The position numbers and the translations under genes are program-made. The notes under the pieces are model-generated. The model saw only the letters and a program-made list of their open reading frames with translations, did not search any database and had not been told where the DNA came from. This document shows positions 5,145 to 22,413 of a stretch of 64,000 nt of DNA, piece after piece. This stretch comes from Actinacidiphila oryziradicis (GTDB lineage Bacteria; Actinomycetota; Actinomycetes; Streptomycetales; Streptomycetaceae), in assembly GCF_005047355.1 (NCBI RefSeq), contig NZ_SUMC01000028.1, forward strand, positions 1 to 64,000, read 5' to 3'. Numbering within the stretch: position 1 is the stretch's first letter; every line of letters starts with the position of its first letter.

Positions 5145-5196
5145 ACGGGTGGCCCGTTGCCGGCCGGCCGCGGCCGGCCGGCAACGGGCCACCCGT
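5145..5196 (+). terminator. Perfect 52-bp palindromic terminator
   Basis: Every base of 5145-5196 pairs: the 26-nt left arm (ACGGGTGGCC...) is the exact reverse complement of the right arm (...GGCCACCCGT). It starts 6 bp after the lipoprotein stop codon. It has no U-tract, as is common for streptomycete terminators. Being symmetric, it would stop transcription from either side. Confidence 0.85.
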
Positions 5197-5337
5197 CTCA
5201 AGGCGGCGGTCGGCTTCGTGCTCTCCGTCACCGCCGCGCTCAGCGCAGTCGTCGCGGTCTTCCAGTGGGGCCGGCCTAGCCGGCCTGCTCGGCGTCCAGC
5301 AGACCGGCCCGGTCATGAACCTGGCACCGCCCCGATG

Positions 5338-6204
5338 TCACCAGCTTCCGGCCTCCTCGGCGACCTGGCCGAGCAGTGCGACCGATGCCCGCGGGTCGCG
5401 GACATCGGCGAGGGAGTGGATCACCTGGTCGAAGCCCAGCTCCGCCAACTGCCCGAGGCCGTCGACGATCTCGCCGACGGAGGAGTCGAGCGACAGCCGG
5501 GAGGTCGAGGTCTTCTCGATCTCCTCGAACGGCCGGTCCTCCCGGGCACAGTGCTCACGCAATACATCGAGCTTGTGGAGAAGCTCGGCGGGACCGCCGA
5601 GGAAGTTACAGGCGTCGGCGTATTTGGCGACCAGGCGCAGGGTCTTCTTCTCCCCCGAGCCGCCGATCAGGATGGGCGGGTGCGGGCGGCGCAGCGGGGG
5701 CAGGGAGTTGAGAGGGCGCTCCAGCCGGTAGTGGGTACCCTCGTACGGACTCTGGTCGCCGGACCACATGCGGTGAGTGATCTGCAGGGTCTCCTCCAGG
5801 CGCTCGAACCGCTCCGCCAGCAGCGGGAAGGGGATCCCCAGCGCCCGGCACTCTTCCTCGTTCCAGGCCGCGCCGATGCCCAGCCAGGCCCGTCCACCGG
5901 ACAGCACGTCCAGCGTGGTGACCGTCTTGACCAGGACAGCCGGGTACCGGTGGACCACGCCGCTCACCAAGACGCCCAGGGTGATGCGTTCGGTGAGGGC
6001 GGCGGCGTAGGAAAGGGCCGAGTAGGCCTCCAGCATAGGCTCCTCCGGCTCGCCGACCCCGCGGATCTGGAAGAAGTGGTCCATGACCCACAGGCTGTGC
6101 AGCCCGGCCTGGTCGGCGTCCCGGGCGATCTGGCCGAAGACCGGGCCGATCGCCTGCGGGCCGTCGGGGTAACTGAAGCTGGGCACTTGGAGACCGATAC
6201 GCAT
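5338..6204 (-). CDS. LLM-class, probably F420-dependent, oxidoreductase
   Basis: A luciferase-like monooxygenase fold starts MRIGLQVPSF. Other landmarks are HSLWVMDHFFQI, RITLGVLVSGVVHRYPAVLVK and GGRAWLGIGAAWNEEECRALGIPFP, then PPILIGGSGEKKTLRLVAKYADACNF. That is the standard order of the F420-dependent LLM subgroup. It would be a cytoplasmic hydride-transfer enzyme; the substrate is unknown. ATG 6204 is preceded by AGAGG, and longer starts lack a ribosome-binding site and the family N-terminus. It is a monocistronic minus-strand gene. The LacI-type promoter 200 bp upstream most likely belonged to a lost lacI gene, though transcription could still reach this one. Confidence 0.85.
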   Translation of the reverse strand: MRIGLQVPSFSYPDGPQAIGPVFGQIARDADQAGLHSLWVMDHFFQIRGVGEPEEPMLEAYSALSYAAALTERITLGVLVSGVVHRYPAVLVKTVTTLDVLSGGRAWLGIGAAWNEEECRALGIPFPLLAERFERLEETLQITHRMWSGDQSPYEGTHYRLERPLNSLPPLRRPHPPILIGGSGEKKTLRLVAKYADACNFLGGPAELLHKLDVLREHCAREDRPFEEIEKTSTSRLSLDSSVGEIVDGLGQLAELGFDQVIHSLADVRDPRASVALLGQVAEEAGSW

Positions 6205-6244
6205 GGCAATCCTCTGGGAGCGGACGGACGGGATGCCTTCCACG

Positions 6245-6361
6245 CTAGCGCCTCCGGCGGATCATGAACCGGCGCCGGGCCGACCGCGTGCCCCGCACCG
6301 CGTTGCAGACGGTTCGTTCGGTGACGCCTGCCCGCGTCGCCCCGTCCAGCATGGTCACCAC
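6245..6361 (-). pseudogene. Relic of a second lacI gene (DNA-binding N-terminus only)
   Basis: Read on the minus strand from GTG 6361, 38 codons give VVTMLDGATRAGVTERTVCN, then AVRG, before collapsing to RRRFMIRRRR and TAG (6245-6247). This aligns residue for residue with the start of the intact LacI regulator at 18320 (MVTMLDVARRAGVTKQTVSN, then VVRG): the helix-turn-helix is shared and everything after is lost. The upstream promoter and operator also match the intact lacI promoter. It is therefore the stump of a paralogous regulator gene. It cannot encode a functional repressor. Confidence 0.8.
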
Positions 6362-6379
6362 CGGATGACACCATCCTCA

Positions 6380-6438
6380 TTTGACCGGTAAAAACCCTTG
6401 CGGCGCTGGACGCTAACAGCGGCCACGAACCGCGTCAA
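6380..6438 (-). promoter_or_regulatory. LacI-type promoter/operator A (facing the lacI relic)
   Basis: On the minus strand: -35 TTGACG (6433-6438), a 17-bp spacer, -10 TAGCGT (6410-6415), then the operator TTTGACCGGTAAAA (6380-6393). The block from the -10 to the operator is nearly identical to promoter D in front of the intact lacI at 18260-18296 (GGCGCCGCAAGGG-type leader). It drives the lacI relic and possibly the LLM gene further down. Confidence 0.75.
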
Positions 6439-6503
6439 GGGGGCCTGTCAGGCTCTGGCCCCGCGTGTCCCGCCGGTCCGGAAAGTCATTCGTGCACACC
6501 CTC

Positions 6504-6560
6504 TTGACCCAACCGACACACGTGATTAACGTCCAGCCTCGCAGCTTTGACCGGTCAAAA
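6504..6560 (+). promoter_or_regulatory. LacI-type promoter/operator B (for the beta-helix glycosidase and lyase)
   Basis: -35 TTGACC (6504-6509), a 17-bp spacer and -10 TAACGT (6527-6532) are followed by the best palindromic operator of the set, TTTGACCGGTCAAA (6546-6559). The operator falls just after the predicted transcription start, where a LacI-family protein would block elongation or open-complex formation. The block is closely similar to promoter C before the sugar-binding protein gene. Confidence 0.8.
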
Positions 6561-6749
6561 GCCGTGCTGCGCTTACGTCTGACGGCCCGACACCCGATCC
6601 CCTGCGCCCCCGCGCTCCTTCTGCGATGAGCCCTGCCCGCTCCGCGGGACGTCGGGGACGGCCGGCGTGTCCGCCGGTTCACCAGCAGGTTCCTCGCTGC
6701 GCAACTGGCGACACCGTGTACGCACACCGACTTGACGAAGGGACATCCA

Positions 6750-8531
6750 ATGAACATCCCTGACCCACGACTGTCGCGCCGGACACTGCTGTACGCCGCC
6801 GGCGTCACAGCCGCCACCAGCTACGCGTCCAGCCTGGCGAGCCCCGCGCAGGCGGCTGCCGCCAAGGCATCGGCCGACCCCGCCGACCAGTTGGTGACGT
6901 ACGCCATCCCGGACGGCATCGCGCAGAACACCAGCTTCGCCGTGAAAGCGCGGACGCCCGGGGGCAAATGGAAGGCGGTCTCCACCTATCTGGCGAAGTT
7001 CATGACCATCGATCCGAGAACGGGCAGCGGTACCAACCAGAACTCGTCCATGGCCTACTTCGACTTCTCGGGCGAGGTTGAGGTTTCGGTCACCTACACC
7101 ACCGACCGGATCACCTCGGCGAGAATCCGCCCGCTCTCGTACGGCATCGAGCACAAGGTGCACAAGCACAACACCGTGACCTTCACCCTGACCGAACCGC
7201 GGAACCTGTCCGTCGAGGTCAACGGAGATCTCTTCGACAATCTCCAGCTGTTCGCGGGGGCGATCGACACGAACCCGCCGAGCGCGGACGACCCCGATGT
7301 CATCTACTTCGGCCCCGGCGTGCACACCACCTCGGACGGTACGGTCACCGTTCCCAGCGGCAAGACGGTCTATCTGGCGGGCGGCGCGGTGCTCAAGTCC
7401 CGGGTGATCTTCCAGGATGTCGAGAACGCCGAGCTGGTCGGCCGGGGCCTGATCTACAACTCGCAAGGCGGCGGCTGCACCGTCAACTCCTCGAAGAACA
7501 TCGTGATCGACGGGGTCACGATGATGTTCCCCTATGGGTACGCGGTCACCGCGGGAGAGGCGCAGAACCTCACCATCCGGAACATGCGCGGGCTCAGCGC
7601 GACGACCTGGGGCGACGGGATCGACCTCTTCTGCTGCAAGGACGTCGTGATCGACGGCGTGTTCATGCGGAACTCCGACGACTGCATCGCCATCTACAAC
7701 CACCGCTGGGACTACTACGGCGATACCCGCAACATCGTCGTCAAGAATTCCAGCCTCTGGGCGGACGTGGCGCACCCGGTCAACGTCGGTACCCACGGCA
7801 ACACCGACAATCCCGAGACGATCGAGAACCTCACCTTCTCCAACCTCGACATCCTCGACCACCGCGAACCGCAGCTGGACTACCAGGGCTGCATCGCGCT
7901 GAACCCGGGAGACAGCAACCTGGTCCGCAATGTGCGGATCGAGGACGTCCGGGTGGAGGACTTCCGGTGGGGCCAGCTGATCAACATGCGGGTCATGTTC
8001 AACACGTCGTACAACACCTCGGCCGGTCGTGGCATCGAGATGGTCTACGTCAAGAACCTCAGCTATACCGGCACCCACGCCTCCACCGCGCACATGGTGG
8101 GCTACGACGCGGACCACGGCATCAAGGACGTGACCTTCGAGAATCTCGTCATCAACGGGACCCTGGTCTCGGACACCGACGGGCACGCCCCCTGGTACAA
8201 GACCTCGGACTTCGTCCCGATGTACACCAACGAGCACGTCACGAATCTGAAGTTCGTGGATTCCGGCGCCTCGCTCGCCTCCGTGCTGCCCGCGATCAGC
8301 AGCGCGGACTCCACGACGGGCAGCACCGGTTCGGACTTCGGCTACACCATCACGGCCGCCAACGTACCGTACGCCTTCGACGCCACCGGGCTGCCCGACG
8401 GCCTGACCGTGGACAAAGCCACCGGTGTGATATCCGGGCAGCCGGCCGGCTCCGGCACCTCCTCCGTCATCCTCAGCGCCACCAACGCCGTGGGCACCGG
8501 CACCCGGACCCTCACGCTGGTGGTGAGCTGA
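6750..8531 (+). CDS. Tat-secreted right-handed beta-helix glycosidase (GH28/GH49-like) with C-terminal Ig-like domain
   Basis: 593 aa. A twin-arginine signal (LSRRTLLYAAG...AQA) is followed by a beta-sandwich-like domain and then a beta-helix from about residue 170 to 510 (GVHTTSDGTVTVPSGKTVYL, NIVIDGVTMM, NLTIRNMRGL). The active-site-like strip is GDGIDLFCC, NSDDCIAIYNH and GTHGN, which resembles the paired aspartates and H-G block of GH28/GH49 polysaccharide hydrolases. The last ~70 residues are a putative Ig-like module (ATGLPDGLTVDKATGVISG). ATG 6750 has GAAGGGA upstream at 6737-6743. The gene is controlled by promoter B and is followed after 3 bp by a lyase gene. A pectin- or dextran-type polymer is the likely substrate; this is inference. 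Confidence 0.75.
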   Translation: MNIPDPRLSRRTLLYAAGVTAATSYASSLASPAQAAAAKASADPADQLVTYAIPDGIAQNTSFAVKARTPGGKWKAVSTYLAKFMTIDPRTGSGTNQNSSMAYFDFSGEVEVSVTYTTDRITSARIRPLSYGIEHKVHKHNTVTFTLTEPRNLSVEVNGDLFDNLQLFAGAIDTNPPSADDPDVIYFGPGVHTTSDGTVTVPSGKTVYLAGGAVLKSRVIFQDVENAELVGRGLIYNSQGGGCTVNSSKNIVIDGVTMMFPYGYAVTAGEAQNLTIRNMRGLSATTWGDGIDLFCCKDVVIDGVFMRNSDDCIAIYNHRWDYYGDTRNIVVKNSSLWADVAHPVNVGTHGNTDNPETIENLTFSNLDILDHREPQLDYQGCIALNPGDSNLVRNVRIEDVRVEDFRWGQLINMRVMFNTSYNTSAGRGIEMVYVKNLSYTGTHASTAHMVGYDADHGIKDVTFENLVINGTLVSDTDGHAPWYKTSDFVPMYTNEHVTNLKFVDSGASLASVLPAISSADSTTGSTGSDFGYTITAANVPYAFDATGLPDGLTVDKATGVISGQPAGSGTSSVILSATNAVGTGTRTLTLVVS

Positions 8532-8534
8532 GCC

Positions 8535-11500
8535 GTGACGAACTCACTGAGCCGCCGCACCTTCCTGGGCACCACCGCGGTGGTACTCGCGGCCACCGGC
8601 ACCCGCTCGCTGCTGGCCCCGGGCACGGCATACGCCGGCCAGCCCGTAGAGCAGTCGGTCGCGGGCTTCGCCTTCGCCCACCCGGGAATCCTGCACACCC
8701 AGGAGGACCTGGACCGCATGAGATCGGCGGTGGCGGCCAAGCAGGACCCGGTCTACGCGGGCTACCAGGCACTGGCCGCCGACGGCCGCTCCTCCTACGA
8801 CTACACGGCACAGAACACCGGCCAGATCACCACCTGGGGACGCGGCCCGTACAACTACCAGGACCAGGCGCCGAGCGACGCCGCCGCCGCGTACCAGAAC
8901 GCCCTGATGTGGTACATCACCCAGGACGTCCGGTACGCGGACAAGGCTCGCGACATCATCAACATCTGGTCGAGGACGCTTCAGGGCCTCACCGGCGCGG
9001 ACGGCGAACTGGGTGCGTCCCTCCAGGGGTTCAAGTTCGTCAACGCGGCGGAGATCCTGCGGTACAGCGGCTACACCGGCTGGGCGGCCGAGGACATCGC
9101 GCGCTGCCGGGACTCGCTGCGGGACGTCTGGTACAAGGCGCAGTCCGGCTATGCCCTCTTCGCCAACGGCGGCTGGGACACCGGGATCATCCAGACCGTC
9201 ATGGCCATCGGCATCTTCTGCGACGACCGGGTGATGTTCGAGGACGCGGTGCGTTACGCCGCCGCGGGCGCGGGCAACGGCGCCATCAGGAACCGGATCA
9301 TCAACGCCACCGGGCAGGGCCAGGAGAGCGGCCGCGACCAGACCCACGAGCAGCTGGCCCTCGGGCTGCTCGCCAACGCCGCCCAAGTGGCGTGGAACCA
9401 GGGCGTCGACCTCTACGGCTTCGCGGGCAACCGCATCCTCGCCGGCTACGAGTACGACGCCAAGTACAACCTGGGCCATGACGATGTGCCCTTCGTGGCG
9501 GACCTGGACAAGACCGGGAAGTACATCAAGACGGCCGTCACCACGCTGGTACGCGGGGTCTCCCGGCCCATCTTCGAGATCGCCTACGCGCATTACGTGA
9601 CCGTGCTCGGGCTGTCGGCGCCGTACACCGAGCAGGCGGTCTTCCGGGGCACCGCCGGAGCCCGGTTCATCGAGGGCTACGACCAGGACCACCCGTCCTG
9701 GGGCACCCTCGCCTACGCCCGCGACGCCCCGGCCGGGACGGTGCCCGCCGTGCCGCCCGGCGCCCCGGCCGGGCTGACCGCGGGCAACGGCGCCGACGGC
9801 GTCGAGCTGGCCTGGGTGGGTTCGGTGGACCCGGCCAGCGCCGCCGCCGCCAAGACGTACACACTGCGCCGGGCGACCAGCCTCGACGGGACGTACAAGA
9901 CGATCGCCGCCGGGCTCACCTCCACGACGTACGAGGACCTGGAGGTGAGCATCGACAAGACGTACTACTACACGGTCTCGGCGTCGAACGACATGGGCAC
10001 CAGCCCGGCGTCGATGGTGGCCTGCGCGACGGCCGGATTGCCGGTCAAGTGGTCGTCGCGGAACGTGGGTTCCGTCCAGGCGGCGGGGCTTACCACCTTC
10101 GACGGCGAGCGGTTCGTGATCGAGGCGAGCGGCGCGGACATCGCGGGGACGAGCGACAGCTTCCGCTTCGCTTCGGTGTCCCTCAAGGGCGACGGGGTGA
10201 TCACCACGCGGGTGGTCCATCCGCTCAGCTCGCAGTACTCCAAGGTCGGCGTGATGATGCGCGACTCGCTGACGGCGGGCTCGGCACACGCGGCGATGCT
10301 GATCCAGGGCCTGACGCTGACCGCCTGGAGCGGGGTGTGGACCACCCGGGCGACCTCCGGCGCGAGCACCTCGGCGACGGGCAGCACTCCGGTGCCGCCC
10401 GCGCAGCAGACGGCGATCTCGACGGCGGCCGCGTACCCGATCTCCAATCTGGGGACGCTGCCGGACTCGGCGACCCCGCTCACGGCCCCGTACGTCGAGG
10501 CGGCGGGCGACGGCTACCGGATGCGCATGCCGTACTGGGTGCGGCTGGAGCGGAAGAAGAACGTGTTCACCGGCTCGATCTCGTCGGACGGCGTCACCTG
10601 GACCGAGGTGGGCTCCACGGAACTCGCGCTCGGCACGACCATTTACGCCGGTCTGGCGCACTGCTCGTGCCTGGGTGTCCCGCAGTCGTACGCGGAGACC
10701 GGTACGGCCACCTTCGACAATGTCACCGTGACCCGGAAGTCCAGCACGCTGTGGGCGGTACCGGCGCCCGAGGGCACCGTGACGTCCCTGGCGGCGACCG
10801 CCGGGACCGGCGCGATCGAGCTGACCTGGAGCGATCCGGACCTGTCCGGCCGCTACACCGTCAAGCGCGCCGCCGCCGGCGGCTCCTACGAGGTGATCGC
10901 GACCGACGTGGGCCCGGTGGGCTTCGGCGTCCACACCCGCTACGCGGACGCGACCGGGGTGCCGGGCACGACGTACTCCTACGTGGTCGCGAAGACCAAC
11001 GTGGGCGGGGCGGGCCCCGACTCGGCGCAGGTCAGCGCGACGATGCCGACGCCGCCCGCGCCCGCGGTCAAGAGCGCGCCGACCGCCTTCGCCAACGCGG
11101 GCCTACCGTTCGCCTACCTGATCGGTGCGTCGAACGCCCCGGCGTCCTTCGATGCCACCGGTCTGCCGGACGGCCTGGCCGTCGATGCCGCGACCGGCCT
11201 GATCTCCGGAACCCCCACCGCCACCGGGGACTTCGACGTCCGGATCGCGGCGTCCAACGCCACTGGCACCGACACCGCCACGCTGGGGCTCACCGTCGGC
11301 ACGCCGCCGCCCGCCCCCTGGTCGTACCAGGACATCGGCGACTACGTCCTGGACGAGAGGCAGTTGGGCATCCACGGCGTGGTCTCCGTACGCACCCCCG
11401 GCAGCACCAGCTACGACGCCACGGACAAGAGCTTCACCGTGCGCGGCGCCGGGACCGACCTGAATGTCAACGGCCAGGGCATGACGGCGCAGTACGCCTA

Positions 11501-12530
11501 CCTGCCGGCCACCGGTGACATCACCTTCACAGCCAGGGTCGCGAGCCGGGCCAACGCGGGCACCAACGACCAGGTGGGTCTGCTGATGGCCCAGTCGCTG
11601 TCGCCGTTCGGCCAGATGGCCGGGGCGATCCTCACCAGCAACAGCAGCGGCGACACCGGCGTCAAGCAGTTCGTACGGCGCCAGGTGGTGGCCGGGGGCA
11701 CCTCAACGACCAGCGGCAGCGGCACCAGTGTGGCGACCCCCACCTGGCTGCGGCTGGAGCGCAGCGGCAACAAGTTCACCGCCTCCACCTCCGCCGACGG
11801 CACCACCTGGTCGGTGATCGGCCGGGACACGATCGCCGCCTTCGGCAAGGCCTCCTACTACGTGGGGCTCGCCGTCACCTCTCGCAGCCCCTTCGCCCTC
11901 AACACCACGGTCTTCGACAACATCACCGTCACCCAGGGCGCGACCACGGTACTCGGCCAGCCGGTCAAGGACCCGTACAAGACCTTCAGCTCCGCGACCT
12001 CACCCACCCCGGTCTACGGCCAGTCGGGCACCGACCTCGCCATCCTGGGCGCCGGGGCGGACATCTGGGTCACCGACGACGAGTACAGCTCCATCTACCT
12101 GCCCGGTGCGGTCACCGACGGCTCGACCGTCACGGTGGCGGTGACCTCACAGGACAGCACCAACGTCTGGACGAAGTCCGGAATCATGGTCCGCAACGAC
12201 ATCACCGGCACCGGTACCTCGGCCGGGTACCTCATCCTCGCGGTCACCCCCGGCCACGGCGTCGCCCTCCAGTGGGACAGCAACGGCAACGGCGCCGTGG
12301 ACAGCAACATAGAGACGGACGGCACCACGGCCTACCCGACCTGGCTCAAACTCGTCCGGACCGGCACCTCCTACGCCGCTTCCTACTCCACCAACGGCAG
12401 CACCTGGACCGCCGTCGGCACCGCCACCGTGAACTCCGCCGCCACGGCCCAGGACGCGGGCGTCTTCACCTCCTCCCATTCCTCCAGCACCGCGGGAGAG
12501 GTCGACTACAGCGACTTCACCGTCAGCTGA
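8535..12530 (+). CDS. Very large multidomain secreted lyase (alginate-lyase-fold catalytic domain)
   Basis: 1331 aa with a Tat signal (LSRRTFLGTTAV...). Residues ~45-380 form an alpha-helical lyase domain of the Alginate_lyase/PL type: HPGILHTQEDLDRM, NALMWYITQDVRYADKARDI, NGGWDTGIIQTVMAI, and ESGRDQTHEQLALG with the candidate catalytic RDQTH. Then come FnIII (~405-500), a concanavalin-like beta-sandwich (~505-735), FnIII (~745-835), an Ig-like module (~845-925) and two more concanavalin-like modules (~930-1135, ~1140-1331), each with a W-x-R-L-E-R or W-L-K-L-V-R strand. GTG 8535 lies 3 bp after the previous stop, with only a weak ribosome-binding site, so translation is probably coupled. The polymer degraded is not evident; uronate-containing plant pectin or alginate is plausible. 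Confidence 0.8.
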   Translation: MTNSLSRRTFLGTTAVVLAATGTRSLLAPGTAYAGQPVEQSVAGFAFAHPGILHTQEDLDRMRSAVAAKQDPVYAGYQALAADGRSSYDYTAQNTGQITTWGRGPYNYQDQAPSDAAAAYQNALMWYITQDVRYADKARDIINIWSRTLQGLTGADGELGASLQGFKFVNAAEILRYSGYTGWAAEDIARCRDSLRDVWYKAQSGYALFANGGWDTGIIQTVMAIGIFCDDRVMFEDAVRYAAAGAGNGAIRNRIINATGQGQESGRDQTHEQLALGLLANAAQVAWNQGVDLYGFAGNRILAGYEYDAKYNLGHDDVPFVADLDKTGKYIKTAVTTLVRGVSRPIFEIAYAHYVTVLGLSAPYTEQAVFRGTAGARFIEGYDQDHPSWGTLAYARDAPAGTVPAVPPGAPAGLTAGNGADGVELAWVGSVDPASAAAAKTYTLRRATSLDGTYKTIAAGLTSTTYEDLEVSIDKTYYYTVSASNDMGTSPASMVACATAGLPVKWSSRNVGSVQAAGLTTFDGERFVIEASGADIAGTSDSFRFASVSLKGDGVITTRVVHPLSSQYSKVGVMMRDSLTAGSAHAAMLIQGLTLTAWSGVWTTRATSGASTSATGSTPVPPAQQTAISTAAAYPISNLGTLPDSATPLTAPYVEAAGDGYRMRMPYWVRLERKKNVFTGSISSDGVTWTEVGSTELALGTTIYAGLAHCSCLGVPQSYAETGTATFDNVTVTRKSSTLWAVPAPEGTVTSLAATAGTGAIELTWSDPDLSGRYTVKRAAAGGSYEVIATDVGPVGFGVHTRYADATGVPGTTYSYVVAKTNVGGAGPDSAQVSATMPTPPAPAVKSAPTAFANAGLPFAYLIGASNAPASFDATGLPDGLAVDAATGLISGTPTATGDFDVRIAASNATGTDTATLGLTVGTPPPAPWSYQDIGDYVLDERQLGIHGVVSVRTPGSTSYDATDKSFTVRGAGTDLNVNGQGMTAQYAYLPATGDITFTARVASRANAGTNDQVGLLMAQSLSPFGQMAGAILTSNSSGDTGVKQFVRRQVVAGGTSTTSGSGTSVATPTWLRLERSGNKFTASTSADGTTWSVIGRDTIAAFGKASYYVGLAVTSRSPFALNTTVFDNITVTQGATTVLGQPVKDPYKTFSSATSPTPVYGQSGTDLAILGAGADIWVTDDEYSSIYLPGAVTDGSTVTVAVTSQDSTNVWTKSGIMVRNDITGTGTSAGYLILAVTPGHGVALQWDSNGNGAVDSNIETDGTTAYPTWLKLVRTGTSYAASYSTNGSTWTAVGTATVNSAATAQDAGVFTSSHSSSTAGEVDYSDFTVS

Positions 12531-12543
12531 GGCACTCCGCGGA

Positions 12544-12586
12544 AAAGACCGCCGCCGCCCGTGGTTCACGGGCGGCGGCGGTCTTT
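12544..12586. terminator. Bidirectional rho-independent terminator
   Basis: A perfect 20-bp stem (AAAGACCGCCGCCGCCCGTG and its complement) with a 3-nt loop, flanked by A-rich and T-rich ends. It lies between the convergent ends of the lyase and the GH51 gene and can serve both. Confidence 0.9.
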
Positions 12587-12596
12587 CCGGTGGGGC

Positions 12597-13661
12597 TCAG
12601 GCCCAGGAGGTGACGGGTATGAACGAGCTGTCGTCCCGGAAACCGGCGTGGCGCAGCATGGCGATCAGCATGCTGCCGACGACCACGGCGTCGGTGGCGG
12701 TGTAGCGGTCCTCGATCAGCCGGGGGGACCGCTGCCAGGGCTCGATGTCCCCGAAGATCTCGTTGGTACGGAAGGTGACGTTCCACTCGTCGAGGGAGAG
12801 GTTGATCCGCTTGGTGTGGCGGCCCTTGGCGTGGACCGCGTCGGCGGTCGCCACGACCCCTTCTATGAGTGACTCCAGGTCGACGCCGCCGGCCAGGAAG
12901 GACGCCAGGTCATCGGGGGTCTCGGCGTAGTACTGGTGGCAGGAGATGTGGCTGACGTGCTCGTATGCCTCCTCCAGGACGGTGGACTCCCAGCTGCCGA
13001 AGGTGGGCATGGCGCTGTGGGCGCTGCCGCACGCCACCAGTTCGAGGTCCGGGTCGTACATCTTCATGACGCGGGCGGTCTCGGCGGCCAGCCGGGCGTA
13101 CTCGTGCGCGGTCTTGTGGCCGGGCTGCCAGCCGCCGTCCATTTCGTTGCCGAGGCACCACATGCGGATGTCGTGCGGCTCCGGTGAGCCGTTGGCCGCG
13201 CGCTGCTCGGAACGGTAGGTGCCGGAGGGGTGGTTGGCGTAAACGAGCAGGTCCAGGGCCTCCTCGACACCCCGGGTGCCGAGGTTGACGGCCATCATCG
13301 GCTCCACGCCGGCCTTGCGGGCGAAGCGGATGAACTCGTCCAGGCCGAACTCGTTGGTCTCGATGGACCGCCAGGCGACGTCGAAGCGCTTCTTGCGCTG
13401 TTCGCGCGGCCCGACGCCGTCCTCCCAGCGGGCGGTGGAGAGATAGTTGCCGCCGGGGTAGCGGATCATGGTGACGCCGAGTTCGCGGATCAGGTCGAGG
13501 ACGTCGCGGCGCAGCCCGTCCTCATCGGCCTCGGGATGGCCGGGTTCGTAGATTCCGGTGTAGACGCAGCGGCCCATGTGCTCGACGAAGGATCCGTAGA
13601 GCCTGGGATTGACCTGGGCCACGGTCAGGGCGGGGTCGATGGTGAGGGTGGCGCGGTGCAC
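12597..13661 (-). CDS. abfA: GH51 alpha-L-arabinofuranosidase, C-terminally truncated
   Basis: 354 aa against about 500 for the family. The (beta/alpha)8 barrel is recognisable: VNPRLYGSFVEHMGRCVYTGIYEPGH split over residues 17-42, RYPGGNYLSTARWEDGVGP (68-86), MWCLGNEMDG with acid/base Glu173, and SLDEWNV with nucleophile Glu292, the family's usual spacing. The sequence stops at LLRHAG-like residues, followed by FRDDSSFIPVTSWA. The rest of the barrel's end and the whole C-terminal beta-sandwich are missing, and a terminator lies only 10 bp on. Both catalytic glutamates remain, but folding is doubtful. It is the last gene of the sugar-transporter operon. It would release arabinose from arabinan or arabinoxylan side chains if active. 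Confidence 0.8.
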   Translation of the reverse strand: MHRATLTIDPALTVAQVNPRLYGSFVEHMGRCVYTGIYEPGHPEADEDGLRRDVLDLIRELGVTMIRYPGGNYLSTARWEDGVGPREQRKKRFDVAWRSIETNEFGLDEFIRFARKAGVEPMMAVNLGTRGVEEALDLLVYANHPSGTYRSEQRAANGSPEPHDIRMWCLGNEMDGGWQPGHKTAHEYARLAAETARVMKMYDPDLELVACGSAHSAMPTFGSWESTVLEEAYEHVSHISCHQYYAETPDDLASFLAGGVDLESLIEGVVATADAVHAKGRHTKRINLSLDEWNVTFRTNEIFGDIEPWQRSPRLIEDRYTATDAVVVGSMLIAMLRHAGFRDDSSFIPVTSWA

Positions 13662-13674
13662 GGGCGGCCTTCAG

Positions 13675-14546
13675 TCACTCGGGGAACGCGGCCGCGACGG
13701 CGGCGCCTTCGCGGCCGAATACGGGAAGGTGTTCCAGCGGGGCTGACGCGTCGAAGGTGGTGCCGCCCTGGTGGACAGTGCCGGTGACGGCGTCGGTCCA
13801 GCGGGCTGCGGACGGCAGGTAGACGGAGCGGCTACGGGCGCCCGCCTCGGTTACCGGTGCGACAAGGATGTCCGGACCGAGCAGGAACTGGTCGTCGACG
13901 CTCCAGGCGTGGTCGTCGCCCGGGAAGCCGAAGAACAACGGCCGCATGACCGGCGCGCCGGTGCGGTGTGCCGCCTCGGACAGTTCCAGCAGGTACGGGC
14001 GGAGGCGCTCGCGCAGCCGCAGGTGTCCGGCCAGGATCGGGTACGCCTCCTGTCCGTACGACCAGACCTCGTTCGGCCCGCCGGTCATGTCTGTGGAGAA
14101 GGTGGGGTAGTTGGGCTTACGGTCGCCGTGCAGTCGCATGATCGGGCTGAAGGTGCCGTACTGGAACCAGCGGACCAGCAGCTCCTGGTAGGCGGGGTCA
14201 CTGGGGTCGCCGCCCTGGAAGCCGCCGATGTCGGTGTTCCACCACGGGATGCCGCTCATCGCGACGTTCAGCCCGGCCCGTACCTGCTGGGCCAGCGACT
14301 CGAAAGTGGTCGGGATGTCCCCGGACCACAGGGCGGCGCCGTGGCGCTGGCTGCCGGCCCAGGCCGAGCGGACCAGGCTGAGCGGCCGGTCCCGGCCCGC
14401 CTCGCGCAGCCCTTCGGCGACGCCGCGCGCGTGCAGCGCCCCGTAGAGGTTGCCGACCTGGGTGCCGGGGCCCGTGGAGTATGCCGCGCGGGCGGACAGC
14501 TCCGGCGTCAGCGCCGTTCGAGGCCGCGCGGATGGTTCACGTACAT
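13675..14546 (-). pseudogene. GH31 glycosidase (alpha-xylosidase/alpha-glucosidase type) with large N-terminal deletion and frameshift
   Basis: ATG 14546, with a good ribosome-binding site (AAAGGAAG), opens MYVNHPRGLERR and hits TGA after 12 codons. In another frame, with no usable start, the C-terminal half of a GH31 enzyme follows: AAYSTGPGTQVGNLYGALHA, PLSLVRSAWAGSQRHGA, LWSGDIPTTFESL (acid/base aspartate), SGIPWWNTDIGGF, and RWFQYGTFSPIMRLHGD through to a normal end at 13675. The nucleophile block (K-x-D-x-x-E) and about the first half of the protein are gone. It sits between the transporter permease (16-bp gap) and GH51. It is a deletion remnant, not an active enzyme. Confidence 0.85.
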
Positions 14547-14562
14547 GTCGGGTGTCTTCCTT

Positions 14563-15387
14563 TCACTTCAGCCCGGAGGTGGCGACCCCGGAGACGAAGC
14601 CGCGCTGGAGGATCAGGAAGAGCACCAGGACCGGGATGATGTACAGGACCGAGCCGGCCGCGATGACTTCGTTGACCGGGGTGTCGTTCGCCGGGTTGGT
14701 GTACTGGGTGGCCACCGCGACGGCCAGCGTGGTGCGGTCCGTGCTGAGCAGCAGCGACGGCGCGATGTAGTCGCCCCAACTCCAGGAGAACGACAACACC
14801 ATGCTGGTGGCGAGCACCGGCCAGGACTGCGGCAGGAAGATGCGCCAGAAGATCCTGCCGTAACCGCACCCGTCGACGATCGCAGCCTCTTCCAGCTCCT
14901 GCGGCATGTTCGAGAAGAACTGCCGGAACAGGAAGATCAGGTAGGGGGCGCCGGCAAGTCCCCAGAGCACCCAGGGCCAGTAGGTGTCGATCATCCCGAG
15001 CTTGGCGAAGATGATGTACGTCGGGATGAGCGTGATCATCGCGGGCATCATCATCGTTGACAGCAGTACGCCGAAGAGCACCTTCTTGCCCGGCGCGGTG
15101 AGCCGGGCGAACCCGAAGCCGGCCCAGGCCGAGCTGATGGTGATCAGCACCGAGTAAATGGTGGCGATGATCAGGGAGTTCCTGGCGTAGCCGAGGAAGG
15201 GGATGAAGTTGAGCGCCCTGGAGAAGTTTCCGAACTGCCAAGAGGCGGGCAGCCAGTGCACCGGATAGGCGGTCAGCTCGGAGCTGCTCTTGAGGGCGGT
15301 GATAATCAGCCAGCCGAAGGGGCCGATGAACAGGGTGGCCAGCGCCACCAGGATCAGGTAGATGGCGCTGCGGCGAGCGAAGATCAT
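14563..15387 (-). CDS. CUT1 sugar ABC transporter permease (MalG/LacG type)
   Basis: ATG 15387 overlaps the upstream permease stop by 4 bp. The 274-aa product has six membrane helices and the EAA loop LEEAAIVDGCGYGRIFWRIF followed by LPQSWPVLATS, diagnostic of the second CUT1 permease. The start is MIFARRSAIYLILVALATLF. It pairs with the next gene upstream to form the channel of an oligosaccharide importer. No ATPase is encoded nearby; streptomycetes commonly use a shared MsiK-type ATPase, which I assume here. Confidence 0.9.
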   Translation of the reverse strand: MIFARRSAIYLILVALATLFIGPFGWLIITALKSSSELTAYPVHWLPASWQFGNFSRALNFIPFLGYARNSLIIATIYSVLITISSAWAGFGFARLTAPGKKVLFGVLLSTMMMPAMITLIPTYIIFAKLGMIDTYWPWVLWGLAGAPYLIFLFRQFFSNMPQELEEAAIVDGCGYGRIFWRIFLPQSWPVLATSMVLSFSWSWGDYIAPSLLLSTDRTTLAVAVATQYTNPANDTPVNEVIAAGSVLYIIPVLVLFLILQRGFVSGVATSGLK

Positions 15388-16409
15388 TTCTTGGCCTCCG
15401 GCTCGAAGCTGTAGAACACCGCGCCCGAGCTCAGTTTGAAGATCACTGCGGTGATGGCGAGGATGATGAGGAACAGCACCCACAGCAGCGCGGAGGCGTA
15501 GCCGAAGCGTCCGTAGGCGAGGTACTGCGCGAATACGTTGATCATGTACAGGTAGTCCCCCTGCGGCACCGAAGTGACCCCGGCCGTACTGGGGTTGGCC
15601 GCCAGGAGCAGCGGCGTGATGCTCTGCAGGGCGGAGATGACGCCGGTGACGACCTGGAAGAAGAGCACCGGCGACAGCAGCGGGACGGTGATCCGCCGGA
15701 ACACCTGCCAGGCGTTGGCGCCGTCGAGACGGGCGGCCTCGTGCAGCTCCTTGGGTACGTCCTGCAGACCGGCCAGCGAGATGATCATCGAGTTTCCGCA
15801 GCCCCAGATGGTGAGCATGAACAGCACGTACCGGGCGTACGGGTCGGCCAGCCAGGTGACGGGGTTGATGCCGACGAATCCGAGGGCGCCGTTGGCGGCG
15901 CCGGAGTCACGGTTGAAGAGCATCTTGAAAGCCATCGCCGCACCGATCGGCGGGAAGACCGCCGGGAGGTAGAACAGCGTACGGAAGACGCCCCGGGCCC
16001 GGATCGGGCGGTTGAGCAGCACCGCGAGCGCGAGTCCTGCGATGAGGCTGAGCGGCACGACAGCCCCGACGAACACACCGGTCCGCAGCAGCGAGTCGCG
16101 GGTCACCGGGTCCGAAAGCAATTCCTTGTAGTTGCCCAGACCGATGAAGTTGGAGTGCGGCGAGATGCCGTCGGAGTCCGTCATGCTCAGCCACAGCGCG
16201 TATCCCAGCGGATACAGCGTCAGGCCCAGGAACCCGAGAAACCACGGCGCGACGCACAGATAGAAGACCCGGGACTGCTGGCGGGCGCGGGCCCCTCGGC
16301 GGCCGGCCCGCCGACCGGTGCGACGGCCGGTGGTCACCCGCGCGGGCCTGGCGGACGCGGTGGTGCCTGCGGGATTGGCGGAAGCCCCGGCGAGCTGGCC
16401 GGTGCTCAC
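15384..16409 (-). CDS. CUT1 sugar ABC transporter permease (MalF/LacF type)
   Basis: GTG 16409 overlaps the binding-protein stop by 4 bp. The 341-aa product has a basic N-terminal tail (RRTGRRAGRRGARARQ) and six helices. The EAA loop reads LHEAARLDGANAWQVFRRIT with VPLLSPVLFFQ. The middle gene of a binding protein/permease/permease operon, it lies in the plasma membrane. The substrate is probably an oligosaccharide freed by the locus's beta-helix enzyme, lyase, arabinofuranosidase and beta-galactosidase; that is inferred from context. Confidence 0.9.
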   Translation of the reverse strand: MSTGQLAGASANPAGTTASARPARVTTGRRTGRRAGRRGARARQQSRVFYLCVAPWFLGFLGLTLYPLGYALWLSMTDSDGISPHSNFIGLGNYKELLSDPVTRDSLLRTGVFVGAVVPLSLIAGLALAVLLNRPIRARGVFRTLFYLPAVFPPIGAAMAFKMLFNRDSGAANGALGFVGINPVTWLADPYARYVLFMLTIWGCGNSMIISLAGLQDVPKELHEAARLDGANAWQVFRRITVPLLSPVLFFQVVTGVISALQSITPLLLAANPSTAGVTSVPQGDYLYMINVFAQYLAYGRFGYASALLWVLFLIILAITAVIFKLSSGAVFYSFEPEAKK

Positions 16410-17755
16410 TTGATCAACTTCTTGTTGTTCGAGAGCTGCTTGTTGATCCCCGTGTTGAGCTGGTCCGCCAGCTTCCCCGCCGAGACGGTCCCGTTGATCG
16501 CCGCGGGCAGGTATTGGTTGACCACGGCGTCGAGTGCGTCCCACTTGGCGTACGGGGTGAAGGAGATCACCGAGAAGTACGGCAGTTCCCGCTGCTGCAC
16601 CGCGTACGCCTGCTTCTGGAAGGGCTCGGCCTGCGGCAGCAGCGGGCGCAGCGACTTCAGCCCGGGGATGCCGGTGCCGTTTTTCGCCCGGGTCTTGGCG
16701 CCTACGCCGCCGAGGAAGTACTCGAAGGCCTGCCAGGCCAACTCCTTGTTCTTGCCCGCCTTGGGCATCCACAGGCCGGTCGCGCTGTAGCAGCTGCTGG
16801 TCCGCTTGGTGCCGAACTGCGGGGCGGGGGCGAAGCGCGAGATCGCGGCGATCTTCTTGTCGGAGTTGACGCTGCCGCCGAACCAGTAACCGTCGGTGGC
16901 GACCGCTATCCGGTTGGCGTCGAAGTTGGGCCAGTCCCAGCCGTTGGGGTCCGGGTTCACGACGGTCGGGGTCATACCGGACTTGGCCAGCTTCAGATAC
17001 CAGGTGAGGATCTTGATCCCCTCCGGACTGGAGTAGTCGACGGCGGAGAAGTCATCGGTGAAGAGGCTGCCTCCGAGGGAGGCGAACATGGACATGAAGT
17101 TCTGCGTGTTGCCGGCGTAACTCCACCCGTACACCTTGGTCTTCTTGCCGCTCTGCGTGAGGCGCTTGCCCTTTTCGAACAGCTCGTCGTAGGTGAGCGG
17201 GATGGTGTCGCTGGGGTAGGACTCGTTCGCCTGGTCGAACAGTGCGGTGTTGTACCAGATCATGGAGTCCTGGGAGTAGTCCTTCACCATGCCGTAGCGC
17301 GGTCCGGTGCCCTGCTTCTTGCCGTCGTAACGCCAGACGTCGTTGACCGGGTCCAGATCGCTGACCTTGATGACGCTGCTCTTGGCGAAGTAGTCGTCCA
17401 GGTCCTGAGCGATACCGTGCGCCGCGAGGTACGGGGTGTCCACTGCGCCCATGCCGCGTACGAGGTCCGGCGGGCTGCCGGCGGTGATCATGGCGGTGAG
17501 CCGAGTGATGTCGTACTTCACGATGTTGATGTTGAACCCGAGCGCCTTCTCGGCCGCCTTGATCTCGGCGGGCAGGCCCAGTTCGGTGGTGCCGATCATG
17601 ATGGTCAGCGTCTTGTTGCCGCCGCCCGAACTGCCGCCGGAGACCGAGCCGGCGCAGCCGGACAGCAGACCGCCCCCGGTGACCGCCGCAGCGGCACCTG
17701 CGGAGGTCACGAGGAACCGACGACGAGTCATCGGGGCACCAGATGTGGACCACAT
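16406..17755 (-). CDS. Extracellular sugar-binding lipoprotein of a CUT1 ABC transporter
   Basis: 449 aa. The N-terminus combines a twin-arginine pattern (TRRRFLVTSAG) with a lipobox (LLSGCAG), so it is probably a Tat-exported lipoprotein. The mature part is a family 1 solute-binding protein: KTLTIMIGTTELGLPAEIKA, ITAGSPPDLVRG, YSQDSMIWYNTALFDQ, and RIAVATDGYWFGG. ATG 17755 has a GGAAGGCAGG ribosome-binding site. It is the first gene of the importer operon under LacI-type promoter C. The operon continues through both permeases, then the broken GH31 and the truncated GH51. Confidence 0.9.
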   Translation of the reverse strand: MWSTSGAPMTRRRFLVTSAGAAAAVTGGGLLSGCAGSVSGGSSGGGNKTLTIMIGTTELGLPAEIKAAEKALGFNINIVKYDITRLTAMITAGSPPDLVRGMGAVDTPYLAAHGIAQDLDDYFAKSSVIKVSDLDPVNDVWRYDGKKQGTGPRYGMVKDYSQDSMIWYNTALFDQANESYPSDTIPLTYDELFEKGKRLTQSGKKTKVYGWSYAGNTQNFMSMFASLGGSLFTDDFSAVDYSSPEGIKILTWYLKLAKSGMTPTVVNPDPNGWDWPNFDANRIAVATDGYWFGGSVNSDKKIAAISRFAPAPQFGTKRTSSCYSATGLWMPKAGKNKELAWQAFEYFLGGVGAKTRAKNGTGIPGLKSLRPLLPQAEPFQKQAYAVQQRELPYFSVISFTPYAKWDALDAVVNQYLPAAINGTVSAGKLADQLNTGINKQLSNNKKLIK

Positions 17756-18112
17756 GTTTTTGCCTGCCTTCCAGGGCTGTTTCAGGACTGCCAGGACTGC
17801 TTCGCTATTCGGGGGGGTTCTCGGGGAGCGAGGGCACCGGCGACCGGAACGGCGGCGGGGAATCGGTGCTCAGGAGGGCGGCCGTGGCGTGGCGCCGTCA
17901 TCAGAGCGGCCGGCATGCCGGCATGCATCCGGGCTCGTCGTTCGCCGCCGGGCGTCTGCCGTCGCCGGGCGTTCACATCGTCGAGGCCGTGCGTCTCCGG
18001 GCAGTGCGCCTGCCGACACGGCGGGCCGCCCGGAGTGATGTCGGTTGGATCGTCCCGTCGGGCCGGACGGGAACATGCTTCATCGTGCGTAGGGGAGTAG
18101 GAACAGCCCGGC

Positions 18113-18169
18113 TTTTGACCGGTAAAAGCTGCGATGCTGGACGTTAACTACGTGTGTCGGGTGCGTCAA
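18113..18169 (-). promoter_or_regulatory. LacI-type promoter/operator C (sugar importer operon)
   Basis: Minus strand: -35 TTGACG (18164-18169), 17-bp spacer, -10 TAACGT (18141-18146), operator TTTTACCGGTCAAAA (18113-18127). It shares CCGACACACGT-type spacer and AGC-TTT leader sequence with promoter B. Its transcript would start about 350 bp upstream of the binding-protein ATG, a long leader in which I see no further structure I can name. Confidence 0.8.
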
Positions 18170-18236
18170 GAGGGCGTGCGTACCTTGCTTCCCTCACCGG
18201 CGGTACATGGCAGGTCGGAGATCCCTGCGGCGCCCC

Positions 18237-18296
18237 TTGACTGCACACAAAAGCCCTGTTAGCGTCCGGCGCCGCAAGGGATTTTTACCGGTCAAA
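18237..18296 (+). promoter_or_regulatory. LacI-type promoter/operator D (autoregulated lacI)
   Basis: -35 TTGACT (18237-18242), 17-bp spacer, -10 TAGCGT (18260-18265), operator TTTACCGGTCAAA (18284-18296) just downstream of the predicted start site. It drives the adjacent lacI gene, so the repressor should control itself. It is almost identical to promoter A at 6380-6438, in inverted orientation. Confidence 0.8.
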
Positions 18297-18319
18297 TGAA
18301 TGAAGGGTGGTGGCGACCG

Positions 18320-19333
18320 ATGGTGACGATGCTCGACGTCGCGAGACGGGCCGGAGTCACCAAGCAGACGGTCTCCAATGTCGTCCGGGGACGCGCGATC
18401 GTCAGCGCCGAGACCAAGGCCAAGGTCGAGGCGGCCATCGCCGAGCTCGGCTACACCCCGAATCTGGTCGCCCGGAGCCTGGCCACCGGCACGACCATGA
18501 CCATCGGCTTCATCGTGCCCACCATCGCCAACCCGTTCTACTCGGAGGTGGTGGAAGTGGTGGAGACCTTGCTGGAGGAGCACGGCTACCACCTGCTCCT
18601 TGCCACTACCCGGGGCGACGGCGAGCGCGCCCGGCGCCACCTGGCCACCCTCTCCAACCGCTCGGTGGACGCGCTCCTGGTGGCCGGTGATTTCGACCTG
18701 AGCGAGCATGTGCCGCTGCTTGGCGAGTACGGACTGCCGGTCGCCCTGTGCGCCTGGGAGATCGACCCGCCGGACACGCTGCCCGTGGTCACCATCGACT
18801 ACGAGAAAGCCGGCTATCTGGCGGGCCGCCACCTGCGGGAACTCGGCCACCAACGCCTGGTGTCGATCGCCGAGCTGCCCGCACACCGCGTACGGGTCGG
18901 CGGCGCCCACCGGGCCTTCGCCGAGGACGGCATCGTTGTCACCGACGACTCGGTGTTCGCGATCCCCGATTCGACTCCCGAGTCCGGTTACGAAGCGGCT
19001 CTGCTGGCGCTTTCGGCCGACCGCACCGCCGACCGCACGACTGCCGTTTTCGCGTCCACCGACGCCATCGCGCTGGGAGTGATGGAGGCGGTCCGGCACA
19101 ACGGCCTGCGGGTGCCAGAGGATGTCTCGGTCGTCGGAATCGACGACATTCCGCAGGCCGCGCACGCCCATCCGCCGCTGACCACTGTGGCCCTCCCGAA
19201 GCGGCGGATGGCCCAGGAGGCCACCGGACTGCTGCTGCGCGGGATCGCCGAGAACCAGCCCCCCTCCCCCTCCCTGACTCTCCTCAGCCCCGAAGTCCTG
19301 GTCCGCGCGAGTTCCGCGCCGCCGGCCGGATGA
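18320..19333 (+). CDS. LacI-family transcriptional repressor of the polysaccharide locus
   Basis: 337 aa from ATG 18320. The helix-turn-helix is at residues 1-25 (MVTMLDVARRAGVTKQTVSN, then VVRG), the hinge follows at ~45-60 (NLVARSLATG), and then comes a periplasmic-binding-protein-like effector domain (TMTIGFIVPTIANPFYSEVV, ASTDAIALGVMEAV, SVVGIDDIPQAAHAHPPLTT). An upstream in-frame ATG at 18296 overlaps the operator and lacks a ribosome-binding site, whereas GAAGGG precedes 18320. I infer that it binds the TTTGACCGGTMAAA sites at 6380, 6546, 18113 and 18284, and is released by an imported oligosaccharide. The GH2 gene follows in the same direction. Confidence 0.92.
   Translation: MVTMLDVARRAGVTKQTVSNVVRGRAIVSAETKAKVEAAIAELGYTPNLVARSLATGTTMTIGFIVPTIANPFYSEVVEVVETLLEEHGYHLLLATTRGDGERARRHLATLSNRSVDALLVAGDFDLSEHVPLLGEYGLPVALCAWEIDPPDTLPVVTIDYEKAGYLAGRHLRELGHQRLVSIAELPAHRVRVGGAHRAFAEDGIVVTDDSVFAIPDSTPESGYEAALLALSADRTADRTTAVFASTDAIALGVMEAVRHNGLRVPEDVSVVGIDDIPQAAHAHPPLTTVALPKRRMAQEATGLLLRGIAENQPPSPSLTLLSPEVLVRASSAPPAG

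Positions 19334-19356: not shown

Positions 19357-22413
<3,057 letters not shown>

Follow-up and report, generated by a model that had tools for sequence, protein, structure and literature searches.

How can genes that a rearrangement has detached from their operon stay under the repressor that governed them there? The way in which such genes keep their regulation is seldom visible. Here we analyse a stretch of 64,000 nucleotides (nt), referred to as the window, which opens contig NZ_SUMC01000028.1 of Actinacidiphila oryziradicis and carries two divergent control regions, about 11 kb apart and inverted with respect to each other. One of them (copy 2) is located between a transporter operon and an intact gene for a LacI-family repressor (lacI), and the other (copy 1) between a short stump of lacI and a pair of genes encoding a glycoside hydrolase of family 28 (GH28) and an alginate-lyase-type protein (the lyase). 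One can still read here the likely state before the break (a collinear cluster in relatives), a scar that the break left behind and the control region that was copied. It appears probable that the GH28-lyase pair is an inverted tail of the transporter operon, kept in the regulon because the control region of the repressor itself was copied beside it in inverted orientation, which would provide a concrete and testable case of a regulon maintained through duplication of the divergent promoters of its repressor gene.

The two control regions are inverted paralogues

The original prediction, which was made from the letters of the window alone, described the two regions as inverted paralogues, and both the description and the positions turned out to be right. 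When 6200-6750 is aligned locally with 17750-18450 in reverse complement, the score is 150, as compared to 19.8 ± 3.2 (maximum 33) for 300 dinucleotide-shuffled pairs. The similarity extends over approximately 290 nt (6285-6575 in copy 1 and 18100-18390 in copy 2, the limits being the ends of the DNA match) and comprises two promoters and the first 25-30 or so codons of lacI. In comparisons against 500 shuffled pairs each, the stump aligns with the start of lacI at z 15.7, promoter A with promoter D at z 17.7 and promoter B with promoter C at z 29.7, and the order stump-A-spacer-B in copy 1 is the order lacI-D-spacer-C in copy 2 (Table 1). The spacer between the promoters is collinear, though weak if taken alone (z 4.6, with a score of 14.5 below the best shuffle, 15.5), and the leaders past promoters B and C (6568-6760 and 17756-18112) are not homologous (z -0.1). 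With the operators excised, the A/D and B/C pairs still score above all 500 shuffles (z 10.8 and 19.4, respectively), so that the likeness exceeds the common operator, and both chance similarity and similarity confined to the operators are excluded.

Copy 1 and copy 2 form the longest inverted repeat found by a repeat search in positions 1-25000 (124 nt, 77% identity), and their longest exact match is 18 nt. A DNA search of the genome's own assembly (11.53 Mb in 389 contigs, with a contamination estimate of 6.25%) retrieved these two copies and no third one at E 0.001; one further match (C24) is merely the lacI helix-turn-helix of another gene.

The stump reads VVTMLDGATRAGVTERTVCNAVRG and then departs from the family, where the intact gene reads MVTMLDVARRAGVTKQTVSNVVRG. 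Because the residues of the helix-turn-helix have been changed and everything after it has been lost, we infer that the stump is no functional repressor, and it is this dead remnant that makes the copy recognisable as a copy. According to the original prediction, each region lay between a lacI and a target gene, and a whole divergon was duplicated, with one lacI lost later. The 5' end of lacI is indeed found in both regions, but as targets one region has GH28 and the other a solute-binding protein, which are of different families; the dead stump is there, but a second full lacI may never have existed. Since just about 290 nt have demonstrably been copied, with no whole lacI and no target gene among them, duplication of the entire divergon is not borne out.

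Promoters and operators

All four promoters have the form TTGACN-N17-TA(A/G)CGT, and a palindrome centred on ACCGGT, the predicted operator, lies 13 to 17 bases past each -10 element (counted on the sequence). Promoters A and D agree at 5/6 positions of the -35 element, 6/6 of the -10 element, 14/15 of the discriminator and 18/18 of the operator, but only at 6/17 of the spacer; that its elements were kept while the spacer drifted hints that promoter A is still used. Promoters B and C, on the other hand, agree at 14 of the 17 bases between -35 and -10. Common elements are detectable even across promoters that are not partners (A vs C, z 7.0; C vs D, z 7.7). A scan of 5200-6800 for consensus sigma70 promoters and terminators returned nothing, even though A and B lie inside; the consensus is stricter than these promoters, to which the outcome of the scan gives no support.

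If one mismatch is allowed, the window has four occurrences of the pattern TTKACCGGTMAA against 0.08 expected, and the exact 13-mer operator TTKACCGGTMAAA is restricted to these four sites in the 11.53 Mb of the assembly (control: 0). The original prediction that one repressor serves all four operators is probably right, judging by this assembly-wide uniqueness. Since the operators are situated just downstream of the -10 elements, the bound repressor would block initiation or promoter clearance. At the level of listings and abstracts, no report of this operator (TTTGACCGGTCAAA, ACCGGT) or of the LacI regulon was noticed in the open-access literature.

The operators are 166 and 169 bp apart in the two control regions of the window, and pairs 165-169 bp apart also adjoin lacI in eight near relatives (L009, L010, L011, L012, L014, L092, L117 and L048). 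Among the 14 loci L092-L105, six have two operator matches (3.4 kb apart in L099), four have one (L093, L097, L103, L104) and four have none (L095, L096, L101, L102). Looping of the operators by helical phasing was considered and is not argued here, because the spacing of 165-169 bp seen in near relatives varies in more distant ones (102, 130, 142 and 155 bp).

Collinear clusters and single control regions in relatives

The nearest kin of the repressor are found in the Streptomyces loci L009-L014 and in the same-family genomes G369, G483 and G238. Locus L048 comes from G369 and L117 from G483; the genome of L010 and G607 appear identical, and G369 looks nearly identical to them. In L009, L010, L011, L048 and L117, transporter genes, a divergent control region, lacI and a GH2 gene follow one another, and the control region is single. 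Of the two kinds of genome that the original prediction proposed to look for, one with a single divergon was found for the lacI-transporter region, and one with a flipped segment was not found among the genomes matched, in each of which the two best candidates were scored.

DNA of copy 1 matches two of 394 genomes of the family at 1e-12 (its own included), four of 382 genomes of the genus of G369 at 1e-8 and four of 343 genomes of the order at 1e-8, in samples that overlap. Scoring was confined to the two best candidates of each genome, and a second copy of weak similarity may have escaped it; with that limit, no matched genome besides its own has two control regions, flipped or not, and the two matches in G483 are halves of one control region. 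Within its own genus (35 genomes), the whole control region is matched only in its own genome, and three others are matched just in the start of lacI.

Relatives of GH28 are present in 31 of 394 family genomes at 1e-60 (its own included) and in four of the six genomes carrying the lacI loci at 1e-30. We read eight GH28 neighbourhoods, namely the five best-matching other genomes of the GH28 family search (G369, G329, G338, G306 and G361), NBC_00620 (G607), S. prunicolor (G396) and SA15 (G398). GH28 and the lyase gene after it are oriented like the transporter genes in all eight. In G329, G338, G306, G361 and G398, which serve as outgroup loci and have a different LacI nearby (34-35% identical), GH28 is directly behind the second permease gene; in the remaining three it is about 13 kb downstream of the control region, and in G369 it follows a lyase-type gene with an AbfB domain. 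No exact operator (pattern TT[TGA]ACCGGT[CAT]AA, its own reverse complement, in a slightly narrower form for five of the genomes) was found beside GH28 in any of the eight, a search that would miss a diverged site. The collinear order, together with the lack of an exact operator beside the pair, indicates that GH28 and the lyase gene were most likely the tail of the transporter operon. In the genome of L009, the only GH28 is 58% identical and located on another contig, which means that the control region also exists without a close GH28.

The original prediction also had one repressor newly coordinating secreted depolymerases with uptake. As GH28 already has the orientation of the transporter genes in all eight relatives read, the copy is more likely to have preserved co-regulation than to have created it.

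Two loci of Streptomyces corynorhini (L012 and L013) contain an open lacI of this family, one by an alginate-lyase-type gene and one by a GH95 gene. In L013, where lacI faces the GH95 gene, the lacI promoter (9930-10030 region) closely resembles A and D between the -10 element and the operator, although the LacI of L013 is only 76% identical to the repressor of the window.

A scar of the rearrangement

The GH51 protein of the window follows its family up to residue 339 and then ends in GFRDDSSFIPVTSWA. The corresponding tail of about 15 codons, the stop codon and the GCCGCCGCCCG hairpin align with the 3' terminus, hairpin included, of the gene located directly before GH28 in relatives. Three relatives were compared, two of them of nearly the same strain, and each gives an alignment score of 46.5 against shuffle means of about 13 (standard deviation about 2, maximum 21.5). 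The in-frame tail of this GH51 chimera is thus most likely derived from that gene, probably the AbfB/lyase gene of the relatives. The point where GH28 once began seems to be still marked in the window, but it is the far end of the lyase gene that is found there now, which indicates that the GH28-lyase pair was turned round. It is this pair, and not the 11-kb segment, that is flipped relative to its neighbour. A remnant of GH31 comprising approximately the last 278 residues starts about 50 nt behind the permease gene, and such debris fits a reworked cluster.

The leader of GH28 (6566-6740) was compared with the sequence before GH28 and after the lyase gene in two relatives; one of the eight comparisons clearly exceeds its shuffle mean (L120 distal, 24.5 vs 18.6 ± 2.3) and is still below the best of 60 shuffles, and the other seven are not clearly above the means. 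On the opposite side, the relatives of the LLM-class oxidoreductase in the same genus are 45-58% identical, which is too distant for placing the LLM-side junction by an empty site.

Evidence for duplication within this lineage and against it

In a tree of 11 control regions, copies 1 and 2 are sisters with support of 86/91, which becomes 86/86 without L014 and 98/97 without the two long branches, L013 and L014. Over the whole region, they are 73-74% identical to each other, while copy 1 is at most 66% identical to any other row, and in the transporter-side half they are nearest to each other (74%). The branch of copy 1 is longer than that of copy 2.

A number of observations weigh against a local duplication beside an inverted operon tail. 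The sister support falls short of the 95/80 mark as long as both long-branch rows are kept, and the decision to leave them out came after the tree had been seen. An arrangement with copy 2 among the orthologues and copy 1 outside has p values of 0.075, 0.063 and 0.023 in the approximately unbiased (AU) test. An earlier tree of nine rows gave 79/78, with AU p 0.114 for copy 1 outside, and did not reject the pairing of copy 1 with L013 (AU p 0.192). In the lacI-side half, copy 2 has 75% identity with L011 and 73% with copy 1, and the copies do not resolve as sisters. L013 shares the stretch from -10 to operator with A and D, so that this part is not private to the lineage, and it lacks a second operator beside lacI; nor was a second genome with copy 1 found in the family, genus and order samples. 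As for the scar, GH51 follows the GH31 fragment in the window and precedes it in relatives, which no simple inversion would produce; the GH51 of the window is only 61-63% identical to that of the relatives; and the scar tail is short (about 48 nt plus the hairpin). AbfB-type ends may be common. The results of the tree and of the half-regions thus make a duplication within this lineage favoured, not proven.

Alternative explanations

The strongest alternative, which takes the original prediction furthest, starts from a larger event, in which the whole divergon, or the whole cluster tail to tail, would have been duplicated in inverted orientation, so that a full second lacI and its operon stood beside the first. 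Later deletions would then have taken away most of one lacI, the transporter genes of the copy and the GH28-lyase pair of the original. A single event would then account for both the inverted copy and the inverted pair, the cluster bears several deletion scars (the lacI stump, GH31 without its N-terminus and GH51 without its C-terminus), and S. corynorhini has its two lacI loci; but nothing of lacI past about codon 30 and nothing of a copied target gene is seen, and several deletions would be needed. We regard it as a doubtful, if serious, candidate, which overlaps with the favoured history and differs from it in the size of the first copy, so that the likelihoods of the two are not exclusive.

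A less likely course of events is horizontal transfer of copy 1 together with the GH28-lyase pair from the divergon of another strain, with no duplication here. It would agree with the patchy distribution of the cluster (the whole control region occurs in a single genome of the 35 in the genus), with the longer branch of copy 1 and with the unresolved lacI-side half; the identity of the copies over the whole region, which exceeds that of copy 1 to all other rows, and the tail of GH51, which suggests rearrangement in place, tell against it.

It is very improbable that the likeness reflects nothing but functional constraint on the promoters and operators of one regulon: all four promoters do have elements in common, but the stump, which is coding sequence without evident function, still aligns with lacI, the elements follow in the same order in both regions, and B and C agree even between their -35 and -10 elements. 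That the copies still act as a recombination switch and invert the 11-kb segment between them, which the original prediction had allowed for, is hardly credible, since the inverted repeats that flank the segment are not nearly identical (77% over 124 nt, with no exact run above 18 nt), no recombinase is found among the seven open reading frames (ORFs) between the copies scanned against Pfam, and no other genome with both copies, in either orientation, was found among those matched, with the two best candidates scored in each.

A proposed history of the regulon

According to the favoured reading, in which an inverted copy of the control region keeps an inverted operon tail in the regulon, the window would harbour a local regulon of a LacI-family repressor, directed at a plant (pectin-type) polysaccharide and consisting of a single repressor gene and two divergent regions with four operators in all. 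The original region would be that between the transporter operon and lacI, where promoter C would serve the transporter and promoter D lacI and the GH2 gene. In this lineage the GH28-lyase pair, once the tail of the transporter operon in a collinear order that is presumably ancestral, would have been turned round, and a segment of about 290 nt (promoters C and D with their operators, the spacer between them and the lacI start) would have been copied in inverted orientation beside it, and presumably kept because it retained co-regulation. The copy of promoter C would have become promoter B, driving GH28 and the lyase gene, and the copy of promoter D would have become promoter A, facing the dead stump with the LLM oxidoreductase behind. 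Sugar freed from the polysaccharide would act as an inducer and lift the repressor from all sites together. A bolder version, which we consider possible though unlikely, is that the copied region not only rescued the operon tail but also recruited the unrelated F420-dependent oxidoreductase through promoter A, across the ghost of the lacI leader; in that case, copying of the repressor's own divergent intergenic region would be a route by which regulons split and grow.

Local regulons of LacI/GalR-family repressors with divergent regulator-transporter promoters, such as those of the CebR and MalR type, are known in Streptomyces. The system described here resembles them in comprising a LacI-family repressor, a sugar ATP-binding cassette transporter, glycoside hydrolases and palindromic operators with a central CG by the regulator gene, and differs from them in having four operators in two inverted paralogous regions, an ACCGGT core and one region next to the dead stump of lacI. 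Promoter capture by duplication, in which a duplicated stretch of DNA supplies a gene with a promoter, has been described (PMC11111574). In evolving E. coli, the citT case is reportedly an instance of it. A duplicated stretch would likewise provide a gene with a promoter in the window, where, as a difference, the copy is inverted, carries operators and apparently restores an old regulon instead of activating a new gene. What we propose would be a variant of promoter capture, in which the divergent control region of a repressor is itself copied, in inverted orientation, to the side of an inverted operon tail. Tandem inversion duplications and staggered-break inversions leave inverted copies flanking rearranged DNA or joined to it, and the window likewise has inverted copies by rearranged DNA; its join points are old and eroded, and the mechanism cannot therefore be assigned to either of the two.

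The repressor and the neighbouring genes

The repressor exhibits the N-terminal helix-turn-helix (PF00356, 63.9 bits against a cut-off of 27) and the periplasmic-binding-protein-like domain (PF13377, 111.3 bits against 26.5) that define the LacI/GalR family. The start at 18320 is preferred, because eight of the 14 loci compared match the longer form from its ninth residue onwards and no earlier, although a start at 18296 is also possible. The protein is 74-83% identical to its eight nearest relatives. In a comparison with named NCBIfam equivalogs, none of the 20 models listed reaches its curated cut-off, the best being PRK10703 (205.8 bits vs 501), and no relatives were found in PLSDB plasmids at 1e-60. 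Between lacI and the GH2 gene there is a perfect tandem array, GTTTCAAC x 4.1, at 19361-19393.

The families of the enzymes (GH28, alginate-lyase-type, GH2, GH51 and GH31) suggest a pectin-type polymer as the substrate. The GH28 protein is 79% and 78% identical to the copies in the genomes of L010 and L011, and it has merely weak, below-cut-off matches to models of rhamnogalacturonidase and polygalacturonase. The LLM-class oxidoreductase matches TIGR03560 with 283.7 bits (cut-off 231.4).

Table 1. Positions of the control regions, their promoters and predicted operators, and the surrounding genes in the window
Feature	Position	Strand	Basis
LLM-class oxidoreductase, F420-dependent; first intact gene behind promoter A	5338..6243	-	PF00296
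lacI stump (copy 1): about 25-30 codons of the lacI 5' end, then unrelated codons to the stop at 6245	6245..6361	-	z 15.7 vs lacI start
Copy 1, inverted divergent control region	6285..6575	-	repeat, alignment and genome DNA searches
Predicted operator A	6381..6392	.	operator pattern scan
Promoter A, TTGACG-N17-TAGCGT; faces stump and LLM gene	6410..6438	-	matches promoter D
Promoter B, TTGACC-N17-TAACGT; faces GH28-lyase	6504..6532	+	matches promoter C
Predicted operator B, perfect palindrome TTGACCGGTCAA	6547..6558	.	operator pattern scan
GH28, twin-arginine-type signal (by eye); behind promoter B	6732..8531	+	PF00295
1331-residue protein with alginate-lyase, Ig-like and DUF1349 domains; probably secreted	8535..12530	+	Pfam
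Hairpin between convergent 3' ends	12537..12593	.	like lyase/AbfB-GH28 hairpin of relatives
GH51 truncated after residue 339, then in-frame tail, most likely of the gene before GH28 in relatives	12597..13661	-	family alignment
GH31 fragment without about the first 414 residues	13678..14511	-	aligns to residues 415-692 of the 696-residue L009 protein
Two transporter permeases, given by the ORF limits (15384-16772 and 14563-15483)	14563..16772	-	PF00528
Solute-binding protein; first gene behind promoter C	16406..17755	-	PF01547
Copy 2, divergent control region between binding-protein gene and lacI, as in relatives	18100..18390	+	alignment, genome search; same place in L009, L010, L011, L048, L117
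Predicted operator C	18115..18126	.	operator pattern scan
Promoter C, TTGACG-N17-TAACGT; faces transporter operon	18141..18169	-	sequence reading
Promoter D, TTGACT-N17-TAGCGT; faces lacI	18237..18265	+	sequence reading
Predicted operator D	18284..18295	.	operator pattern scan
lacI-family repressor, 337 residues from 18320 or 345 from 18296	18320..19333	+	PF00356, PF13377
GH2, beta-galactosidase-type; downstream of lacI	19471..22413	+	Pfam

Two minor features were observed around the LLM gene. In the stretch from promoter A across the stump (6243-6438, minus strand), the stop codon of the stump stands just ahead of a possible start of the oxidoreductase. At the other end, between the convergent genes of an osmoprotectant-binding protein and the LLM oxidoreductase, there is a perfect loopless inverted repeat of 26 bp (5145-5196), perhaps a bidirectional terminator.

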